Shown one piece after another: positions 5,420-21,004 of a DNA stretch of 21,004 nucleotides. This DNA is from a virus. The stretch covers positions 1-21,004 of the IMG/VR virus record IMGVR_UViG_3300048014_000055; one strand, written 5' to 3'. The notes under the pieces are model-generated. The model was given only the letters and a program-made list of their open reading frames with translations, ran no database searches and was not told the origin of the DNA. Both the position numbers and the translations under genes were made by a program. How positions within the stretch are numbered: the first letter of the stretch is position 1; each line of letters starts with the position of its first letter.

Positions 5420-6081
5420 TGCCAGACGGTTTCTCCGCTCCCGATGTCGTCGCCGCCACCGATGGTGGCATGATCATCAGCGCCGAGACGCTCGGCAAAC
5501 TTGGCCGCGGAAGGCGCAATGATGGGCGGCGCTGGCTCAAGACGTGGATCGACAACGAGATCAACGCCAAGCCGATCAATGGACCGACCGAAAAGCCGGC
5601 GAACGTGCGCATCGGCACCATCGCGGACGAGCCCGGCCTGCACCGCCTCATGATGCTCGACGTGGAGGAGAATGCCCGCGCCATCGCAGAGCCGTGCCCG
5701 GACAAAGTGATGGAGCACATTCAGAAGGGTACCAGGCGGCAGGGCGCCATCATCGCCATGATCGACGGGCCGAAAGGCGAACCGGTGGCGTGCATGAACC
5801 TTCAACCGTTCCAGTGGTGGTGGAGCAAGGCCTACTTCCTTCAGGAGGTGTGGAATTACGTGCACCCGGATCACCGGGCATCGAAGCACGCAGACAGCCT
5901 AATGAAGTTCGCGCGGTGGGCAAGCGACAACATGACGGCAGAGTATGGAAACCGCGTTTACTTGCTGCAAGGCGTGACTTCTAAAGACAATGTTCAAAAG
6001 AAGGTAGCCTTTTACTCGCGATACGGGAACTATATTGGCGCGTTCTTTATCTACCCTGACGCAGCAGGAGGCGTCCCATGA
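5419..6081 (+). CDS. GNAT-fold N-acetyltransferase-like protein (220 aa)
   Basis: Members of the GNAT family transfer an acetyl group from acetyl-CoA to an amine. Here residues 61-80 (NVRIGTIADEPGLHRLMMLD) look like the first strand and helix. Strands follow at about 109-128 (GAIIAMIDG, PVACMNLQ). The motif-A-like segment at 146-165 (NYVHPDHRASKHADSLMKFA) matches the V-x-P-x-x-R...A pattern of the cofactor loop and helix. The C-terminal part (KKVAFYSRYGNYIGAFFIY) matches the usual final strands. The acetyl-CoA loop lacks the usual glycine, so activity is uncertain. Such genes recur between tail and internal-protein genes of podophages, but their substrate is not known to me. The start is ATG 5419 in a TAATG overlap; the stop overlaps the next ATG (ATGA). 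Confidence 0.75.
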   Translation: MPDGFSAPDVVAATDGGMIISAETLGKLGRGRRNDGRRWLKTWIDNEINAKPINGPTEKPANVRIGTIADEPGLHRLMMLDVEENARAIAEPCPDKVMEHIQKGTRRQGAIIAMIDGPKGEPVACMNLQPFQWWWSKAYFLQEVWNYVHPDHRASKHADSLMKFARWASDNMTAEYGNRVYLLQGVTSKDNVQKKVAFYSRYGNYIGAFFIYPDAAGGVP

Positions 6082-9000
6082 GCGGCGGCGGATCGAGCAC
6101 AACCACCAGCAGCAGCACGGTCCCGCAGACCTTCCTGAATGCCTACAACAGCACGGTCAACCGCGCGTCGAGCGTGGCCAAAACGCCATACCAAGCGTAC
6201 ACCGGCAATTTGGTGGCTGGGTTTTCACCGGACCAGACGACGGCGCAGGGTGAGGTCGAGCAGGCACAGGGGGCGTATCAGCCGGAACTGAATGCGGCGA
6301 ACTCGGCGGTGGGCGCTTCGACTGCGCCGTTATGGTCGAACACGATGCAAACTGGCGTCAGCCCTTCGTCAGGCATTGCCGGCTACACGCCTAATTTCTA
6401 CGGTTCGTCGCCGCAGGTGAACGCCGGCACGATCTCGCAATACGAAAACCCGTATCAGTCGCAGGTCATCGGCGCGACCGAAGCGCAGATCAACAACACC
6501 GATGCCCAGCAAATGGCGCAGCTTGGTGGCAATGCGGCGTCCGCTGGTGCGTTTGGCGGCGACCGGATGGGCGTCGCGCAAGGCATCCTTGGCGGGCAGC
6601 AGGCCATTGCCAACAACAGCACGCTGGCCGGGCTGAACCAGTCGAACTACGCGCAGGCTTTGGCCGAGGCGAACCAGCAGCAGCAGACCGGCATCGCGGC
6701 CAACGAGGCCAGTCTGGCGTCGGGCGAGAGCGAGTTCAACAACCAGCAGCAGGCGCAACTGAGCGCGAACGAGGCCAACGCCTGGTTGAACTCGCAGGCC
6801 GGCTACGCCTATGGCAACCTCGCCCAGGAAGGCAACAACCTGGCGCTCGGCGATGCATCGGCGCTTGCTTCGTCGGGTTTGACGCAGCAGCAGCAGGCGC
6901 AGGCCGGGCTGAACACCGCCTATGAGCAGTGGCAAGCGCAGCAGGCGTTCCCGTATCAGCAGACCGGGTGGCTGGCCAACATCACCGAGGGCATCGGCTC
7001 GAACGTGGGCGGGTCAAGCACCACGACGCAGACCAACAATGCAGCGGGCGGCCGGGTGCCGCGGGCGGCGGGCGGGATCGTGGTGCCGGGCTACGACAAC
7101 GGCGGCGGCATCCTTTCCGAGATACCGGACGTAGCGACCAGCTACATCCCCACGTCCGGGTCGGGCGGCTCGGGTGGCGGCGGCATAGGTCGCGGGCCGC
7201 CAGCACCGCCATCGGCGCAAGTGCAGCCCGGCATGTCGCCCAGCAGCATGATCAGCGCGGCCGGCGGCGCCACGTCGCTCTACAACAACCTCGGCGGCCC
7301 GCAGTTGATCGGGACGAACGGCATTATTTCCGGGCCGCTGTTCGGTGGATCGTCGGCGCCGTCGATCATCGGCAACGGCGGCATGGGTATCGCCAGCGAC
7401 GGCGAGAGTGTGCCGCTGACCAATATGGGGTCGAGCGCGTTTGGGCCTGGCCTGGACACGCTAAGCATGCCATCGCCGGCGACAGTTGGCGCCTCCAACC
7501 CGAGCTTGTTCGGATCGCTGTTCGGGTCCGGGTCGGCTGCCGCATCGGTGCCGAGCACAGAGATTGCGTCGAGTGCGATTCCGACCGGCATAGGCTCGGG
7601 TGCGCTGGATAGCACCATACCGACACTGACGGCCGACGCGGCAAGCGGCGCCGGTGCTGGCGGTGCTGGGTTCCTTGGCTCGCTGGGCAGCGCAATCGAT
7701 GCGGGTGCCAGCGCCGTAGGTGATGGACTGGCAACTGGCGCCGGAGCAATCGCTTCCGGTGTCGGCGTGGCAGCGGACGCCATTGCGTCAGGGGCATCGG
7801 CAGTGGCTTCTTGGCTGCTGCCTCTGTTTGCTTTCCTCAAAGATGGCGGGCGCGTTGGAACGGAGCCGCAGCACCATGCACACGGTGGCATTGTGGTGCC
7901 GTTTTCGCAACGCGAGGCGCGCGCGCACGGCGGGATCATCGGCAACAATGGCGAGATGCCGTATTCGATGGCGCCCCCCGTTCTGGCCACGGGCACCACA
8001 GGGATGCCGGTGATGGGCATCTTCGGCACCAGCTCGCAGCCAGGTCCGGCCAATCTTTCGCCAAGCGGCGGCGCGCTGGCAGATGGCGGCATCGTGACCC
8101 GCGCGTTCGGCGGCGGCATGGGTTCCGGCCGCGGCAACAGCGCGCCCACCACCGGCTTCGGCAATTTCGCCGCCCCGTCCTACAATGTTTCCGGCGCGCC
8201 TGGCGCCGGCAACACCAACCCGATGGGCATCCTGTCGCCGTCCGGCTACAACTCGGCCGCCAGCATGGGCGCGCATCCGTTTGGCCTGAAAACCGGCGGC
8301 ATCGTGGTGCCATTCCGGCGCCATTTTGATGATGGCGGTTCGACAGACCCGCAGCCGACCGACGCGATGGTTGACCAGCTACGCGCAGATGAAACGGCCG
8401 GCGCGCAGTCGGATGCTGCGGCAGCAGCAGCGCCGGCGACCGCGGCCGCGCCGCAACCCAACGCCGCCGCTTCCTCGACACCGGGCGTCGGGGCGACGCA
8501 GACCTACCAGCCGGAGAAGCCCAACCTTTGGATACCCGCGCTGGCCGGCCTGGCGACCGCAGCGCTCGGGCGGCATCATGAGGTCGGCCACAACATCGCC
8601 GAGGGCGTGCTGGCCGGGCTGGGCACGTATTCCAAGGAGGACGAGCAGTATCAGGGGCAGCAGGAGAAGGCTGCGACGATCCAGCAGGAAGCGAAGCGGC
8701 TAGCGGATGCTGCCGAGCAGCACCGGGCGGATTTGGCTGAGACAGTGCGGAGCCACATGGCGACCGAAAGCACGGCGGGGCTGACCGCGACGAGCGAGGC
8801 GGCTTACCGTGCTTTGTCTGGGAAGGTCGATATGATGAACGCAGGCACAAACGCTAAGCGTGCGGCAAGCGAGACGGCTTTGCAGGGCATACAGGCAACC
8901 AAAGAGCAGTATGACCTAGATCAAGAAAGAAAATTTCAAGCGCTTTTGGCTGCGGCGCAGAATGGCGGCGGACAGCAGTCAAATGGCACGTCAGCGCCAA

Positions 9001-10370
9001 GCGGCACCGCTGCGCCAAGCGGCACCGCTGCGCCGTCGTCTTCAAATCCGAGTTTGTCCAGCCAGTCGTTGCCTCAGTCAGCGCAGCCAGGGCAAAGCGC
9101 GCAAGGGGCTCAGCCGGGTCAGCCCCGTCCAATTATGGATTTGGCTGGTATGCAGAGACTGGCACTGATGCAGCTAAATTCAGGCATCCCGAACTACGTC
9201 GCGGCAGGTAGGGCGCTGCTAGATCAAGTCAACGAGGCACTAAAAAGCGGCATTACCATGGGTTCTAATGGTTCTGCGATTGAAGTGCCAGGAAGTACGT
9301 CGGTCGCAGCAGCGCGTGCTGGCGCAATAGCCACTGCTGAATCAAAACCCAAAATTCTGGAAAACCTGAGCAATCGCGCAGCGGAACCAGTCAGGCTTGC
9401 GCCTAACGACACCGCCACAAGCGGCTTCAATTTGTTGCCGCCGGCTCTGCAAGACCAGATTGTGGGCGGCAACGGCGGAGGTCAGTATCAGCCTACTTCA
9501 ACGCAAAACAGTGGTTTACCACAAACCAACGCGTCGCAGCAGCAAACTTCGTCATTCCGCCCGTCGTCCCCGCCTTCGCAGGGCATTCCGACCGTCACGC
9601 GGTCGCCGCCAGACTTACCACCATCGCAGTCTCTTGCGTCCCCATCTTTGATCAAAAACCCCGATGGTTCGGTCACCAGTTCGGTGAACAGCTTCAGCAG
9701 GGCATCTGCTGATGCGCAGGGCAAAGATGTTGGCGCGATTCCGCAGAATCTGGAAACCTTGAGCAACACACGCACGCAACTTGTAGCAATTAACAACGAG
9801 ATTCAGCAGAACGCCAACTCCTCCAATTTTGTTCGACAGGGCTGGGGGGCCGCCACACGCACAACTTTGGCGAAGGCGGCAAACTCCGCAGCGGCCAGCT
9901 TTGGCGCCGGTCCGGTGTTTGATCCTACGTCCATCGGAAACAACGAGTCGTTTATCAAGAATAGCAACGTTGCCGCGTTCGCATTAGCGCGGACCATGTC
10001 GGGGGGGCGCGTCGCTCTCGGTGAAGTTCTCCAAGCAAACCAGTCTGTTCCAAATATTAACAACTCTTTTTACGGGAACAGCGTGGTTTCTAACCTCTTG
10101 TTGCAGGACAACATGCGTCAGACGGACCGGTTGCGATATCAAGCAGAGCAGGCAGACCGTGGCGTGTCGCCGACGGTTTCGGGAGACGCTTTTGATAGAG
10201 TTAATCCACCGGAGAATTATGTTGTTGCGGCGATGGCAACCGCGGCAAAGAACTACAACCCTCGCGGTGTTCAGGCTCTTATGCAAACTCCAACAGCCGC
10301 AAACATTTCCGCTTTTGATCAGAGGTATGGCCAAGGAACCGCGCAAATGATCTTGCGCGGCATGCAGTAG
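6078..10370 (+). CDS. Giant internal virion/ejection-type protein with GGIV repeats (1430 aa)
   Basis: Probably an internal virion or DNA-ejection protein, judged from length, low complexity and position before another giant gene. Residues about 115-215 carry YENPYQSQVIGATEAQ, AGAFGGDRMGVAQGILGGQQ and NSTLAGLNQSNYAQAL, a signature I recall from podophage virion proteins. Then come Gln/Asn/Ala-rich helices (to about 300) and a Gly/Ser-rich section holding GG-I/V/R motifs at 322-344, 588-609, 614-621, 667-680 and 737-754. GRGPPAPP is at 371-378. An Ala-rich linker follows, then a helical zone from about 815 (WIPALAGLATAALG, coiled-coil-like to about 890). The last 500 residues are Ser/Gln/Pro-rich, then helical. 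ATG 6078 has a perfect AGGAGG 6 bases upstream. From about 8850 the DNA is distinctly poorer in GC than the first two thirds. A tape-measure role is less likely because no long-tail genes are present. Confidence 0.7.
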   Translation: MSGGGSSTTTSSSTVPQTFLNAYNSTVNRASSVAKTPYQAYTGNLVAGFSPDQTTAQGEVEQAQGAYQPELNAANSAVGASTAPLWSNTMQTGVSPSSGIAGYTPNFYGSSPQVNAGTISQYENPYQSQVIGATEAQINNTDAQQMAQLGGNAASAGAFGGDRMGVAQGILGGQQAIANNSTLAGLNQSNYAQALAEANQQQQTGIAANEASLASGESEFNNQQQAQLSANEANAWLNSQAGYAYGNLAQEGNNLALGDASALASSGLTQQQQAQAGLNTAYEQWQAQQAFPYQQTGWLANITEGIGSNVGGSSTTTQTNNAAGGRVPRAAGGIVVPGYDNGGGILSEIPDVATSYIPTSGSGGSGGGGIGRGPPAPPSAQVQPGMSPSSMISAAGGATSLYNNLGGPQLIGTNGIISGPLFGGSSAPSIIGNGGMGIASDGESVPLTNMGSSAFGPGLDTLSMPSPATVGASNPSLFGSLFGSGSAAASVPSTEIASSAIPTGIGSGALDSTIPTLTADAASGAGAGGAGFLGSLGSAIDAGASAVGDGLATGAGAIASGVGVAADAIASGASAVASWLLPLFAFLKDGGRVGTEPQHHAHGGIVVPFSQREARAHGGIIGNNGEMPYSMAPPVLATGTTGMPVMGIFGTSSQPGPANLSPSGGALADGGIVTRAFGGGMGSGRGNSAPTTGFGNFAAPSYNVSGAPGAGNTNPMGILSPSGYNSAASMGAHPFGLKTGGIVVPFRRHFDDGGSTDPQPTDAMVDQLRADETAGAQSDAAAAAAPATAAAPQPNAAASSTPGVGATQTYQPEKPNLWIPALAGLATAALGRHHEVGHNIAEGVLAGLGTYSKEDEQYQGQQEKAATIQQEAKRLADAAEQHRADLAETVRSHMATESTAGLTATSEAAYRALSGKVDMMNAGTNAKRAASETALQGIQATKEQYDLDQERKFQALLAAAQNGGGQQSNGTSAPSGTAAPSGTAAPSSSNPSLSSQSLPQSAQPGQSAQGAQPGQPRPIMDLAGMQRLALMQLNSGIPNYVAAGRALLDQVNEALKSGITMGSNGSAIEVPGSTSVAAARAGAIATAESKPKILENLSNRAAEPVRLAPNDTATSGFNLLPPALQDQIVGGNGGGQYQPTSTQNSGLPQTNASQQQTSSFRPSSPPSQGIPTVTRSPPDLPPSQSLASPSLIKNPDGSVTSSVNSFSRASADAQGKDVGAIPQNLETLSNTRTQLVAINNEIQQNANSSNFVRQGWGAATRTTLAKAANSAAASFGAGPVFDPTSIGNNESFIKNSNVAAFALARTMSGGRVALGEVLQANQSVPNINNSFYGNSVVSNLLLQDNMRQTDRLRYQAEQADRGVSPTVSGDAFDRVNPPENYVVAAMATAAKNYNPRGVQALMQTPTAANISAFDQRYGQGTAQMILRGMQ
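8994..9029 (+). repeat. Two tandem 18-bp units inside the 1430-aa gene
   Basis: Two identical units, gcgccaagcggcaccgct, lie end to end and a third begins at 9030 before diverging. They encode APSGTA twice in a low-complexity linker. The repeat marks a slippage-prone site close to the place where the gene's base composition changes. Confidence 0.85.
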
Positions 10371-18683: not shown

Positions 18684-19388
18684 TCATTCGTGCGTCACGT
18701 TCATGGTTGAGGCGCCGGCCATCGCCGGCACGTCGGGGCCAGGCCACCCATCGTCCGGGAGCAAATCACCGTCGTCGGTATCCTGCGGTTCAAAGCGCTT
18801 CAAGGCCGCGTCAAACGAGGCGTTGATCCTGTCACGGAACGCCTGCGGGGCCTCGGCCGAGAGGTTAATCTGAACGTCCGCCCTGCGCATCAGTGCGTGG
18901 ACATCATCAACCGTCTGCGCCTTGTCGAGTGCAGCAGACAGCCGCGCCAGCCATTGTTCGGCTTTGTCGGCAACCGGGGCCGTGGCCGACTTAGAAAGAG
19001 CCAGCGGTTTGACCTTGTAGCCCTTCTTTCGCCCCTTCTTTTCAGTGAGTGCCAGCGTGATCTCGCCATCAATGTGCGACAGATGGCTGATCCTGATGCC
19101 GCCGACTTTGAGTGCGCCGAACATCACATCGGGATCGCGATAGAGCGTCATGCCGCGGCCGACGTAGGCATTGCCATCCTTGCCCCAGCACTGCACCAGC
19201 AGGCGGCGCATGATTTTGCAGGGCTTGTACGGCTTGCCTTCATCACCTCCAAAGCTGATGGATACCGGTTGCTCGGCGCCCGCGTCTTTCGACACCGACA
19301 AGACATTTATGGTGAGCGTGCGGCCGATGAGATCGTCCGCGGTAAGCTGGTCGGATTTAGCGACCAGGGTGTCGCTGAGGTCGTTCAA
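18684..19388 (-). CDS. Conserved partner of a phage exonuclease, function unknown (234 aa)
   Basis: Residues about 14-130 look conserved and strand-rich: DQLTADDLIGRTLTINV, EQPVSISFGGDEGKPYKPCK, MRRLLVQCWGKDGNAYVGRG, MTLYRDPDVMFGALKVGGIR, ISHLSHIDGEITLAL. I recall this order from phage genes next to YqaJ-type exonucleases. A small beta-barrel that binds nucleic acid is conceivable, and a single-strand annealing or binding role would fit the exonuclease beside it, but neither is shown. Residues about 140-195 are helical and an acidic stretch (198-214, DTDDGDLLPDDGW) follows. The last residues (MNVTHE) are not the SSB-type acidic tip. The start is TTG 19388, in a TTGA overlap with the exonuclease stop and with GAGGAG 8 bases upstream. 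Confidence 0.7.
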   Translation of the reverse strand: MNDLSDTLVAKSDQLTADDLIGRTLTINVLSVSKDAGAEQPVSISFGGDEGKPYKPCKIMRRLLVQCWGKDGNAYVGRGMTLYRDPDVMFGALKVGGIRISHLSHIDGEITLALTEKKGRKKGYKVKPLALSKSATAPVADKAEQWLARLSAALDKAQTVDDVHALMRRADVQINLSAEAPQAFRDRINASFDAALKRFEPQDTDDGDLLPDDGWPGPDVPAMAGASTMNVTHE

Positions 19389-20080
19389 AGATCAATCTCC
19401 TCTTCTACTCGGCGTTCGGTGGGCAGCAAACGAAACCCAAACCGGGATTCGGTGATGGCTCGGTAGCGCGCCAATTTTTCAGCCAAGCGTTTCTCGAAAG
19501 CGCAGGCGGCCTCGATGATGGCATCCTGCACTTTGTCGTCAGGATAGACGCGGATCGTCACCATGGGCATGCCACCCGAGTAACTGATGAAATCGCACCA
19601 TTTGCGGTCGGACACCAAAAGCCCGGTCTGCACCTGGATCAAAAAATCATCGGGCATGCGATCTTCGGCGGCGCATTCGATGATCGTCTGCGCCTGGAAC
19701 TTTTGGCCCCGACTTTTGCACTCGATAAAGCCATCATCGCAGACCAAACCATCAGGCGAGAAGCCCAGCGTAAAGCCCCATTCGTCGTTGGTGATAAAAC
19801 CGACCTCCTCGACAGGGGCGTAGCGCTGCGCATACTTTATCCTGGCATCTACTTCGTCATCTTGCCCGCGCAGCATGGCGTCACTCACGTAACTCGGTTC
19901 GACGTACCGTGTGACGCGCTGCGCCAGCAGTTCGTAAAGATGCGCGCTCTCCTTGTCGTTGCTGGCGATTTTCAGCGTGGGCGTGATGATCAGTTTCATC
20001 TCGCTGGCAGTCAGCAGGCCGCAGCGTGCGGAAAACCATTCATCTGATCCCTGGATTAGATCGCGGTAATAGCGGATCAC
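19385..20080 (-). CDS. YqaJ/lambda-type phage exonuclease (231 aa)
   Basis: Members of this PD-(D/E)XK family digest one strand of double-stranded DNA ends to feed single-strand annealing recombination. The N-terminal motif QGSDEWFSARCGLLTASEM (10-28) is the family's substrate-binding block. The catalytic core is GFSPDGLV...GFIECKSR with D110, E120 and K122, the same spacing as D119, E129 and K131 of lambda exonuclease. IQVQTGLLVSDRKWCDFISY (148-167) supplies the conserved Gln motif. The length is normal for the family. The GTG start at 20080 overlaps the previous stop (GTGA), with GGAGG 5 bases upstream. The gene overlaps the conserved 234-aa gene downstream, suggesting one recombination unit. 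No recognisable RecT, Beta or Erf annealing protein is seen in the window. Confidence 0.9.
   Translation of the reverse strand: MIRYYRDLIQGSDEWFSARCGLLTASEMKLIITPTLKIASNDKESAHLYELLAQRVTRYVEPSYVSDAMLRGQDDEVDARIKYAQRYAPVEEVGFITNDEWGFTLGFSPDGLVCDDGFIECKSRGQKFQAQTIIECAAEDRMPDDFLIQVQTGLLVSDRKWCDFISYSGGMPMVTIRVYPDDKVQDAIIEAACAFEKRLAEKLARYRAITESRFGFRLLPTERRVEEEIDL
19397..19402 (-). promoter_or_regulatory. Ribosome binding site supporting a TTG start
   Basis: On the - strand GAGGAG lies 8 bases before TTG 19388, inside the end of the exonuclease gene. No usable ATG or GTG is nearby in that frame, so the rare TTG start is accepted. Confidence 0.65.
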
Positions 20081-20301
20081 ACCCGCCTCCCAATCTGCAC
20101 AACCGAGGCGCCAACCACCCGCGGCATCGATATGCTGGCGCTCGCCTCGGCGATCTGCTGAAGCCGATACCGCGCGCGGTCGAGTTCACACTCGGCGCGC
20201 ACCAGGTCGGCGATCAGCGCGTCAACCTCGTCCCGCTGCGCTGGCGATAAATGCACGCGGCCGGCTAAGGATTTGAGGCGCTTGGATAGGGGCGGCATCA
20301 C
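20077..20301 (-). CDS. Small helical protein upstream of the exonuclease (74 aa)
   Basis: Not recognised. The sequence is a likely coiled coil or helical hairpin (LSPAQRDEVDALIADLVRAE, then CELDRARYRLQQIAEA), with a basic N-terminus and a strand-like end (PRVVGASVVQIGRRV). GTG 20301 overlaps the previous TGA as GTGA; ATG 20298 directly after it is an equally possible start, one residue shorter. An AAGGG about 6 bases before the GTG may be its ribosome site. It overlaps the exonuclease start by four bases, so it is made together with it. A regulatory or DNA-associated role is only a guess. Confidence 0.6.
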   Translation of the reverse strand: MMPPLSKRLKSLAGRVHLSPAQRDEVDALIADLVRAECELDRARYRLQQIAEASASISMPRVVGASVVQIGRRV

Positions 20302-21004
20302 GCACCACCCTTCGCCGCAGTTTCAAGGTCAGCGAGACGCCCGACCATAACCTCAAGTTTGGCGACGATATCGAGCGCACCTTTGTCGTTGCGCCAATGC
20401 TGACGCGCCTCTGAAAACGTCAGATTGCGGCAGCCGGCCACCACGCGCCATGCGCCACGAATGCGGACTGCGTAGGCTTGATGGCCGCGGTGCTCGCCGC
20501 CATAGACGGCGGTCAGGCTGGCGCAGTTATAGACCCAGACCTCCGTGGCGGCGGGCAGGTCGCCGATCGTGGTCAGGCTGGCGCAGTTATAGACCCGGAC
20601 AAACGTGGCGGCGGGCAGGTCGGGCAGCGCGGTCAGGCCGGTGCAGTTCACGACCCAGACCTTCGTGGCCCTGGGCAGCTCGGGCATCGTGGTCAGGCTG
20701 GCGCAGTTGGAGACCCAGACCTTCGTGGCGGCGGGCAGGTCGGGCAGCGCGGTCAGGCTGGCGCAGTTCTCGACCCAGACATCCGTGGCGGCGGGCAGGT
20801 CGCCGATCGTGGTCAGGCTGGCGCAGTTCTCGACCCAGACCTCCGTGGCGGCGGGCAGGTCGCCGATCGTGGTCAGGCTGGCGCAGTTGGAGACCACGAC
20901 CTCCGTGGCCCTGGGCAGGTCGGGCATCGTGGTCAGGCTGGCGCAGTTCTCGACCCAGACATCCGTCGCGGCGGGCAGGTTTTCCAGCAGCCACGTCAAC
21001 GAGC
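20298..21004 (-). CDS. Leucine-rich-repeat-like phage protein, N-terminus outside the window
   Basis: The product contains at least eight 20-residue repeats of the form (L/M/I)-x-(D/E/N)-L-P-(A/R)-A-T-x-V-W-V-x-N-C-A-S-L-T. The period is that of YopM/IpaH-type repeats, and the N-C-x-x-L-T part recalls BspA/TpLRR-type repeats. Such arrays form a curved solenoid used for binding. After the repeats comes a domain of about 70 residues (YAVRIRGAWRVVAGCRNLTF, SEARQHW, then a helical end) that I recall from other phage LRR proteins. The frame stays open to the window edge. The codons before residue 1 of the ATG/GTG/TTG-started frame (TTG 20999) read SLT-like, so that TTG is just another repeat codon. 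The ligand and function are unknown. It is the most upstream visible gene of the - strand operon. Confidence 0.75.
   Translation of the reverse strand, partial: SLTWLLENLPAATDVWVENCASLTTMPDLPRATEVVVSNCASLTTIGDLPAATEVWVENCASLTTIGDLPAATDVWVENCASLTALPDLPAATKVWVSNCASLTTMPELPRATKVWVVNCTGLTALPDLPAATFVRVYNCASLTTIGDLPAATEVWVYNCASLTAVYGGEHRGHQAYAVRIRGAWRVVAGCRNLTFSEARQHWRNDKGALDIVAKLEVMVGRLADLETAAKGGA
20511..20980 (-). repeat. Tandem 60-bp repeat array (about eight units)
   Basis: The DNA repeats every 60 bases with no gaps. Units 20761-20820 and 20821-20880 differ at a single base (20781 versus 20841). Other units differ mainly by replacement of whole codons at fixed places and by exchange of small blocks between units. 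The array lies wholly inside the LRR-like gene and keeps its frame, so gain or loss of units would leave the gene intact. Confidence 0.92.

Follow-up and report, generated by a model that had tools for sequence, protein, structure and literature searches.

The window analysed here, the whole stretch of viral DNA, is the entire IMG/VR record IMGVR_UViG_3300048014_000055 (21,004 bases). Its last bases encode, on the minus strand, an LRR protein made of nearly identical tandem units between an N-terminal cap and a conserved C-terminal module. As the window is the whole record, the 5′ start of the gene is missing, and homology to four relatives (L002, L003, L061 and L073) places the loss at approximately 15–30 N-terminal residues. 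The features of this region are as follows.

20298–21004, minus strand: LRR gene, truncated at its 5′ side by the edge of the contig (stop codon at 20298–20300, reading frame 20301–21002).
20979–21002, minus strand: final part of the N-terminal cap (SLTWLLEN), which aligns with SLTWLLAN, SLSWLFEN and SLAWLIEN of relatives.
20499–20978, minus strand: eight 60-base units of 20 residues each, defined by Tandem Repeats Finder, the codon listing and the model strands; unit 1 is at 20919–20978 and unit 8 at 20499–20558.
20949–20963, minus strand: diversified codons of unit 1, at positions 6, 8 and 10 (GAT, TGG, GAG), from the codon listing.
20301–20498, minus strand: conserved C-terminal module (RGxWRVxAGCRxLTxxEARxHW), about 65 residues, with four strands and two helices.
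20077–20301, minus strand: small downstream ORF of 74 residues, overlapping the stop of the LRR gene.
19385–20080, minus strand: YqaJ-type recombination exonuclease (PF09588, E 1e-14; phrog_149 exonuclease, E 1e-25).
18684–19388, minus strand: phrog_11517 protein, function unknown (PHROGs match).

Tandem Repeats Finder describes the array with a period of 60, 7.8 copies, 83% matches and a score of 632. The diversified codons of unit 1 alternate with invariant GTC codons, and the pattern recurs every 60 bases, as far as 20529–20543 in unit 8. The N-terminal cap, only the end of which is present in the window, consists of a β-hairpin and a helix in the model of L003. Elsewhere in the window, a large ORF (6078–10370) contains a short stretch (8994–9034) of 2.3 perfect tandem copies of an 18-base repeat.

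The initial annotation had described the array as LRR-like. A phmmer search supports this, with matches to YopM (E 3.4e-21), SspH1/2, IpaH and plant RPP1 LRRs, and Pfam PF23247 (LRR_RPS2) scores above its cut-off. The expectation of a tandem 20-residue LRR protein of the bacterial type is met. The best PDB matches found by Foldseek are also LRR proteins, none of them under an E value of 0.001 (best 3.6e-3). Identity with the IpaH/SspH effectors was considered and rejected, as no NEL domain was found and the NCBIfam matches are limited to the LRRs and lie far below the cut-offs. The top matches in a viral fold search are uncultured phage proteins, some of them annotated as pentapeptide repeats, consistent with a shared C-terminus.

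The AlphaFold2 model has pLDDT values of about 90–98 over most units and 77–83 in the last unit. Its strands are predicted at residues 14–18, 34–38 and so on to 154–158, corresponding to positions 6–10 of every unit, and the L003 model places them likewise. Unit positions 7 and 9 are an invariant valine in the unit type of the window. The initial annotation had the variable residues flanking a V-W-V strand, of a kind that often lines the binding face in solenoid repeats, and in the model positions 6, 8 and 10 are on the LRR β-strand, alternating with the two valines. With the valines fixed at 7 and 9, the side chains at 6, 8 and 10 should point off the core, onto the concave sheet. This outward orientation is expected from strand alternation and the LRR register of the model; no solvent exposure was computed.

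Positions 6, 8 and 10 correspond to residues 9, 11 and 13 in the numbering of the initial annotation, and its readings of all three agree with the codons. Over the eight units, position 6 is D, E, E, D, K, K, F, E (codons GAT, GAG, GAG, GAT, AAG, AAG, TTT, GAG), and position 10 is E, S, E, E, S, V, Y, Y (GAG, TCC, GAG, GAG, TCC, GTG, TAT, TAT). Position 8, given as mostly tryptophan, reads W, V, W, W, W, W, R, W. Synonymous changes were said to be few, and within the array there is only one such codon, GCG/GCC at 20967–20969, the site that the initial annotation had named. On the other hand, the statement that the units differ mainly at two fixed positions holds only in part. The units do differ there, but three positions vary rather than two, and “mainly” is too strong for the window alone, where 8 of the 16 non-synonymous variants fall at columns 6, 8 and 10. 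The other eight are in column 3 (A/R), columns 13–14 (A/T, S/G) and columns 17–20 (T/A, I/M/L, P/G, D/E), and every change in these columns alters the amino acid.

Comparable arrays are found in a number of relatives. A first search found L002 (IMG/VR), which has two units and a C-terminal part that is 91% identical, and L003, a prophage-like region of a Ferrovibrio MAG; further relatives came from degenerate DNA patterns in which the variable codons were left free, and from alignment searches. The six units of L003 are identical in DNA over their shared codons save for three, the same 6, 8 and 10 as in the window, each of which has two states (GTC/GAC, CGG/TGG and GTG/GAG, giving V/D, R/W and V/E). 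In L011, L018, L039, L061, L073 and G401 the framework codons vary between phages and hardly inside an array, and L014 is a looser example of the same pattern. Variation lies strictly within columns 6, 8 and 10 in L003, L039, L073, L011 and G401 (columns 6 and 8 only in the last); L011 has one additional pair in column 8, AGG/CGG, which is synonymous. The two units of L002 are identical at these sites. The number of units ranges from 1 (L015) to 8 (the window). A divergent unit type (YASGC-type, ETLDASGC) is joined to the same C-terminal module, and this subfamily varies at columns 5, 6, 8 and 10 (19 nonsynonymous and 3 synonymous changes).

Among 385 genomes from the class of the Ferrovibrio MAG, only that MAG has an LRR array; the second match, G290, is a hexapeptide-type protein bearing the same C-terminal module. 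A search of named phages and plasmids for close LRR relatives gave weak matches only. No account of such arrays in phages came up in literature searches, which had little coverage of subscription papers. The relatives come from MAGs or metagenome contigs, and their hosts are mostly unknown. In G401 (IMGVR_UViG_3300047994_000162, 68.5 kb), the first 61 bases equal the last 61, both within the LRR array; this is probably a circular genome whose contig was broken at the array. LRR arrays also lie at contig ends in the window, L011, L018, L019, L039 and L006.

For the statistics of change, ten arrays with 50 units in total were pooled, one from the window and nine from phage or prophage records. 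Nearly all of them have phage-specific framework codons common to their units and differ at columns 6, 8 and 10. These 3 of 20 columns contain 36 of the 52 nonsynonymous variants, for which the binomial probability is about 2e-18 if all columns are assumed equal, and the interleaved columns 5, 7 and 9 have no nonsynonymous change at all. By Nei–Gojobori-type counts, pN is 0.307 at columns 6, 8 and 10 and 0.032 in the framework, with an overall pS of 0.036. The per-site dN/dS comparison proposed in the initial annotation, made here as a counting test with no codon-model likelihood, thus gives a pN/pS ratio of 8.6 at the three columns (4.1–49 by bootstrap over arrays), the highest among all sixteen alternating triads. 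Arrays within contigs give a ratio of 5.8 and arrays at contig edges one of 12.9; L014 by itself gives just 1.6.

The framework is homogeneous within arrays (pS of 0.026) compared with between phages (0.42), which indicates concerted evolution. These distance counts assume that unit pairs are independent, and recombination may inflate such tests. Moreover, as several arrays are at contig ends, the order and number of their units in short-read assemblies may be wrong; short-read assembly is unreliable in both respects for comparable arrays (PMC12222747).

Between the window and L002 the pS of the C-terminal module is 0.218 and its pN 0.042, indicating purifying selection. The predicted four strands and two helices are modelled well in L003, and with a pLDDT of 61–66 in the window. 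Searches of Pfam and the PDB with the module found no match. PHROGs and NCBIfam match only the solenoids, except for phrog_20532, which covers the module region of the hexapeptide relative L009.

The module is not confined to LRR proteins. A DNA pattern for AGCR.....(E/D)A..HW matched at least 119 stretches in viral contigs, and among the matches listed 111 distinct proteins were extracted (loci L115–L230, IMG/VR). Among these 111 proteins, the repeats before the module are of the pentapeptide type in roughly 37, hexapeptide-type in 28, LRR in 11 and unclassified in 35. This classification is crude and automatic, and the unclassified proteins include many further solenoids and at least one chance match. 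In the form AGCRxFTxxEARxHW, the module terminates at least about 100 further phage proteins built of different repeats, among them pentapeptide (ADLSGANL), hexapeptide-type (VYGNARVSGDAW), CRNCTNC-type and IGEWARIGE-type. Two to three module-bearing genes or matches are clustered per phage or genome in L155, L133, L207, L190, L163 and G244 (C37:196293-197697), and their arrays, where read, differ from each other.

Caulobacter phages provide a case in which array length can be followed. In the isolates RW, RLK, KcrB and GB2A (L231–L234, gp016/gp015), the pentapeptide member has 357 codons, including the stop, in the first three and 232 codons in GB2A, an in-frame difference of 375 bases from RW between flanks that are about 99.8% identical. 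The deletion in GB2A has been reported; apart from it, two base changes and two additional Cs are all that distinguish this phage from RW (PMC11053796). At least on that branch, array length has changed while the rest of the genome remained constant.

The gene had been placed at the head of an early operon rather than in a tail cluster, and its surroundings agree with this. The small ORF, the YqaJ-type exonuclease and the phrog_11517 protein follow downstream, the structural and lysis genes are encoded on the plus strand, opposite to the LRR gene, and relatives are found near RecT, ERF, YqaJ or PD-(D/E)XK genes. The N-terminus of the 74-residue ORF resembles that of the ORF which follows the LRR gene in L002 (LSKRLK...). 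The neighbours of the relatives are an ERF and a YqaJ-like gene (L002), RecT (L003), a PD-(D/E)XK nuclease and RecT (L078), an AAA ATPase and an integrase (L075, L061), DUF2303 and DUF5131 (L073), and a DNA methyltransferase and a PAPS-reductase-like gene (L014). These neighbourhoods are consistent with early or recombination regions; the timing of expression is inferred. The phrog_11517 protein is paired with a YqaJ-like exonuclease both in the window and in L014 (1447–2226). Judged by its position, it may be a single-strand annealing protein, but it matched no such family. In L078, a gene for an acyl-carrier-like protein (PF00550, 7505–7771) is directly upstream of the LRR gene. Known defence families were considered for the LRR protein itself and none was matched; a search of the PADLOC defence-system library gave only Cas8b at E 0.015, taken as noise.

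The explanation we favour, and consider probable though far from settled, is that the gene encodes an early LRR binding protein shaped by recombination among its units and by selection at positions 6, 8 and 10, with a host or defence protein as the inferred target. Expression data are lacking, and no within-population alleles of a single LRR phage stand behind this explanation. The cap, the stack of 20-residue units and the conserved C-terminal module rest on the sequence or the model, and the near-identity of units in an array, the excess of amino-acid change at the three codons and the differing unit numbers are likewise direct observations; recombination and selection have the support of the statistics. 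Unequal recombination between units would homogenise the framework and alter the number of units, possibly with the assistance of the recombinases encoded nearby. Changes at 6, 8 and 10, on the concave face of the strands as modelled, would be fixed because new binding specificities are selected for. The result would be a fast-changing binding surface for a variable protein, most probably one of the host or its defences that is encountered early in infection, while the conserved C-terminal module might perform a constant task such as anchoring, oligomerising or delivering the bound target; both roles are inferred. In an early phage gene, such selection is most likely caused by a host or defence target, which nothing in the data identifies; what the protein binds, and any role in counter-defence, is speculation, as the initial annotation had said. 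Against this explanation, the alphabet of each array (V/D, R/W and V/E in L003) is narrower than an open-ended arms race predicts, and the low ratio of L014 and the lack of differences at these sites in L002 also count against it.

The narrow alphabets would be accommodated if they were a code, each triad recognising a single element of a polymer, filament or other ligand with a repeating structure, much as the repeats of TAL effectors read DNA bases. The units are otherwise identical, the triads are freely combined, and V/D at position 6 and R/W at position 8 recur in L003, L011, G401 and L073 despite their different framework codons. V/D and R/W are single-base steps, however, and their recurrence may be mutational convenience. 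The alphabets also vary by phage (D/Y, H/Y and E/K/F at position 6), no ligand is known, and concave LRR faces usually bind folded proteins. We therefore regard this reading as improbable, although a TAL-like code for the triads is not excluded. It is about equally improbable that the protein acts outside the bacterial cytoplasm, as part of the virion or as a lysogenic-conversion factor, whether an adhesin or a secreted effector like YopM, SspH and IpaH. The unit is of their 20-residue LRR type, and there is a weak LRR match in the Synechococcus phage S-CBWM1, in a putative tail protein among tail-fibre genes; the strand of the gene in the window, the recombination neighbours there and in the relatives, and the absence of a detected ubiquitin-ligase domain speak against such a role.

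A neutral account would have solvent-exposed LRR residues simply unconstrained and the arrays recent duplications; the structural constraint on the framework and the youth of the units are in its favour. Sites without constraint, however, ought to keep pace with synonymous change, and columns 6, 8 and 10 change about nine times faster; other columns expected to be exposed, for example 5 and 16, are invariant. This makes a neutral origin very improbable. In favour of targeted mutagenesis, by a diversity-generating retroelement or similar, the changes are limited to three codons of each unit while the codons beside them stay invariant, and some codons in the window differ by two or three bases. 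Yet variation reaches the third base in just 3 of the 25 columns of variable codons, compared with 18 for the first base and 17 for the second, and the substitutions are not adenine-directed (GTC/GAC, CGG/TGG, GAC/TAC). No reverse transcriptase (RVT_1) was found in 15 records, mostly fragments, the 68.5-kb G401 included, and matches to the unit motif form a single cluster per record, split across the contig ends in G401, with no further copy elsewhere. A cis-acting diversity-generating retroelement, in particular, is argued against by the lack of a reverse transcriptase and of a second template copy, and we regard targeted mutagenesis as very improbable.

Concerted evolution combined with a few hypervariable surface residues is known from repeat receptors in fungal and vertebrate recognition. 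The same design in early phage genes suggests a rapidly evolving binder, probably engaged in an intracellular arms race with the host. Given the three-residue rule, specificity is open to direct test, and the common C-terminal module offers a way into the many phage repeat proteins that lack annotation. A broader proposition, which we regard as doubtful, is that phages carry widespread re-programmable binders, in which one C-terminal module is combined with interchangeable β-solenoids (LRR, pentapeptide, hexapeptide and others) whose units are shuffled by recombination and display a small outward alphabet. If true, a modular recognition code would allow a phage to direct one and the same early protein at new targets, in the host or in rivals.

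The array shares features with several known repeat systems. In TAL effectors, near-identical units differ at a few specificity residues. The phage arrays have a different fold and no known DNA target, and three variable residues rather than two. The lamprey VLRs are LRR solenoids in which diversity is located at the outward residues of the concave β-strands. In comparison, diversity in the phage arrays is encoded in the genome without somatic assembly, and no copies of the unit motif lie outside the array; the caps are different, and the units have 20 residues compared with about 24. The pentapeptide protein gp016 of Caulobacter phage RW has a similar C-terminal module after its solenoid, and its array length varies between near-identical isolates, but the solenoid is different and has no 6/8/10 triad.

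The closest evolutionary analogue is provided by the WD40, TPR and ANK repeats of fungal NLRs (the Podospora het-d/het-e family). These repeats show concerted evolution, variable unit number and hypervariable sites on the binding face under diversifying selection (PMC12222747, PMC4986451). As in the fungal genes, units of the phage arrays are more alike within a gene than between genes, and the hypervariable sites, with their ratio of 8.6, are on the predicted binding face. Unlike the fungal proteins, the phage arrays consist of LRR units, which a fungal NLR survey does not report, in a small early-region gene. No NACHT or NB-ARC domain is found in the 234 residues present of the window protein, and its full-length relatives, of about 165–210 residues, comprise only the cap, the array and the C-terminal module. 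YopM, SspH and IpaH, in turn, have the same unit length and register as the phage arrays and are their best PDB sequence matches; the phage units differ from theirs in being nearly identical in DNA and in their early-region location. By its fold, the window protein belongs with these bacterial 20-residue LRRs.
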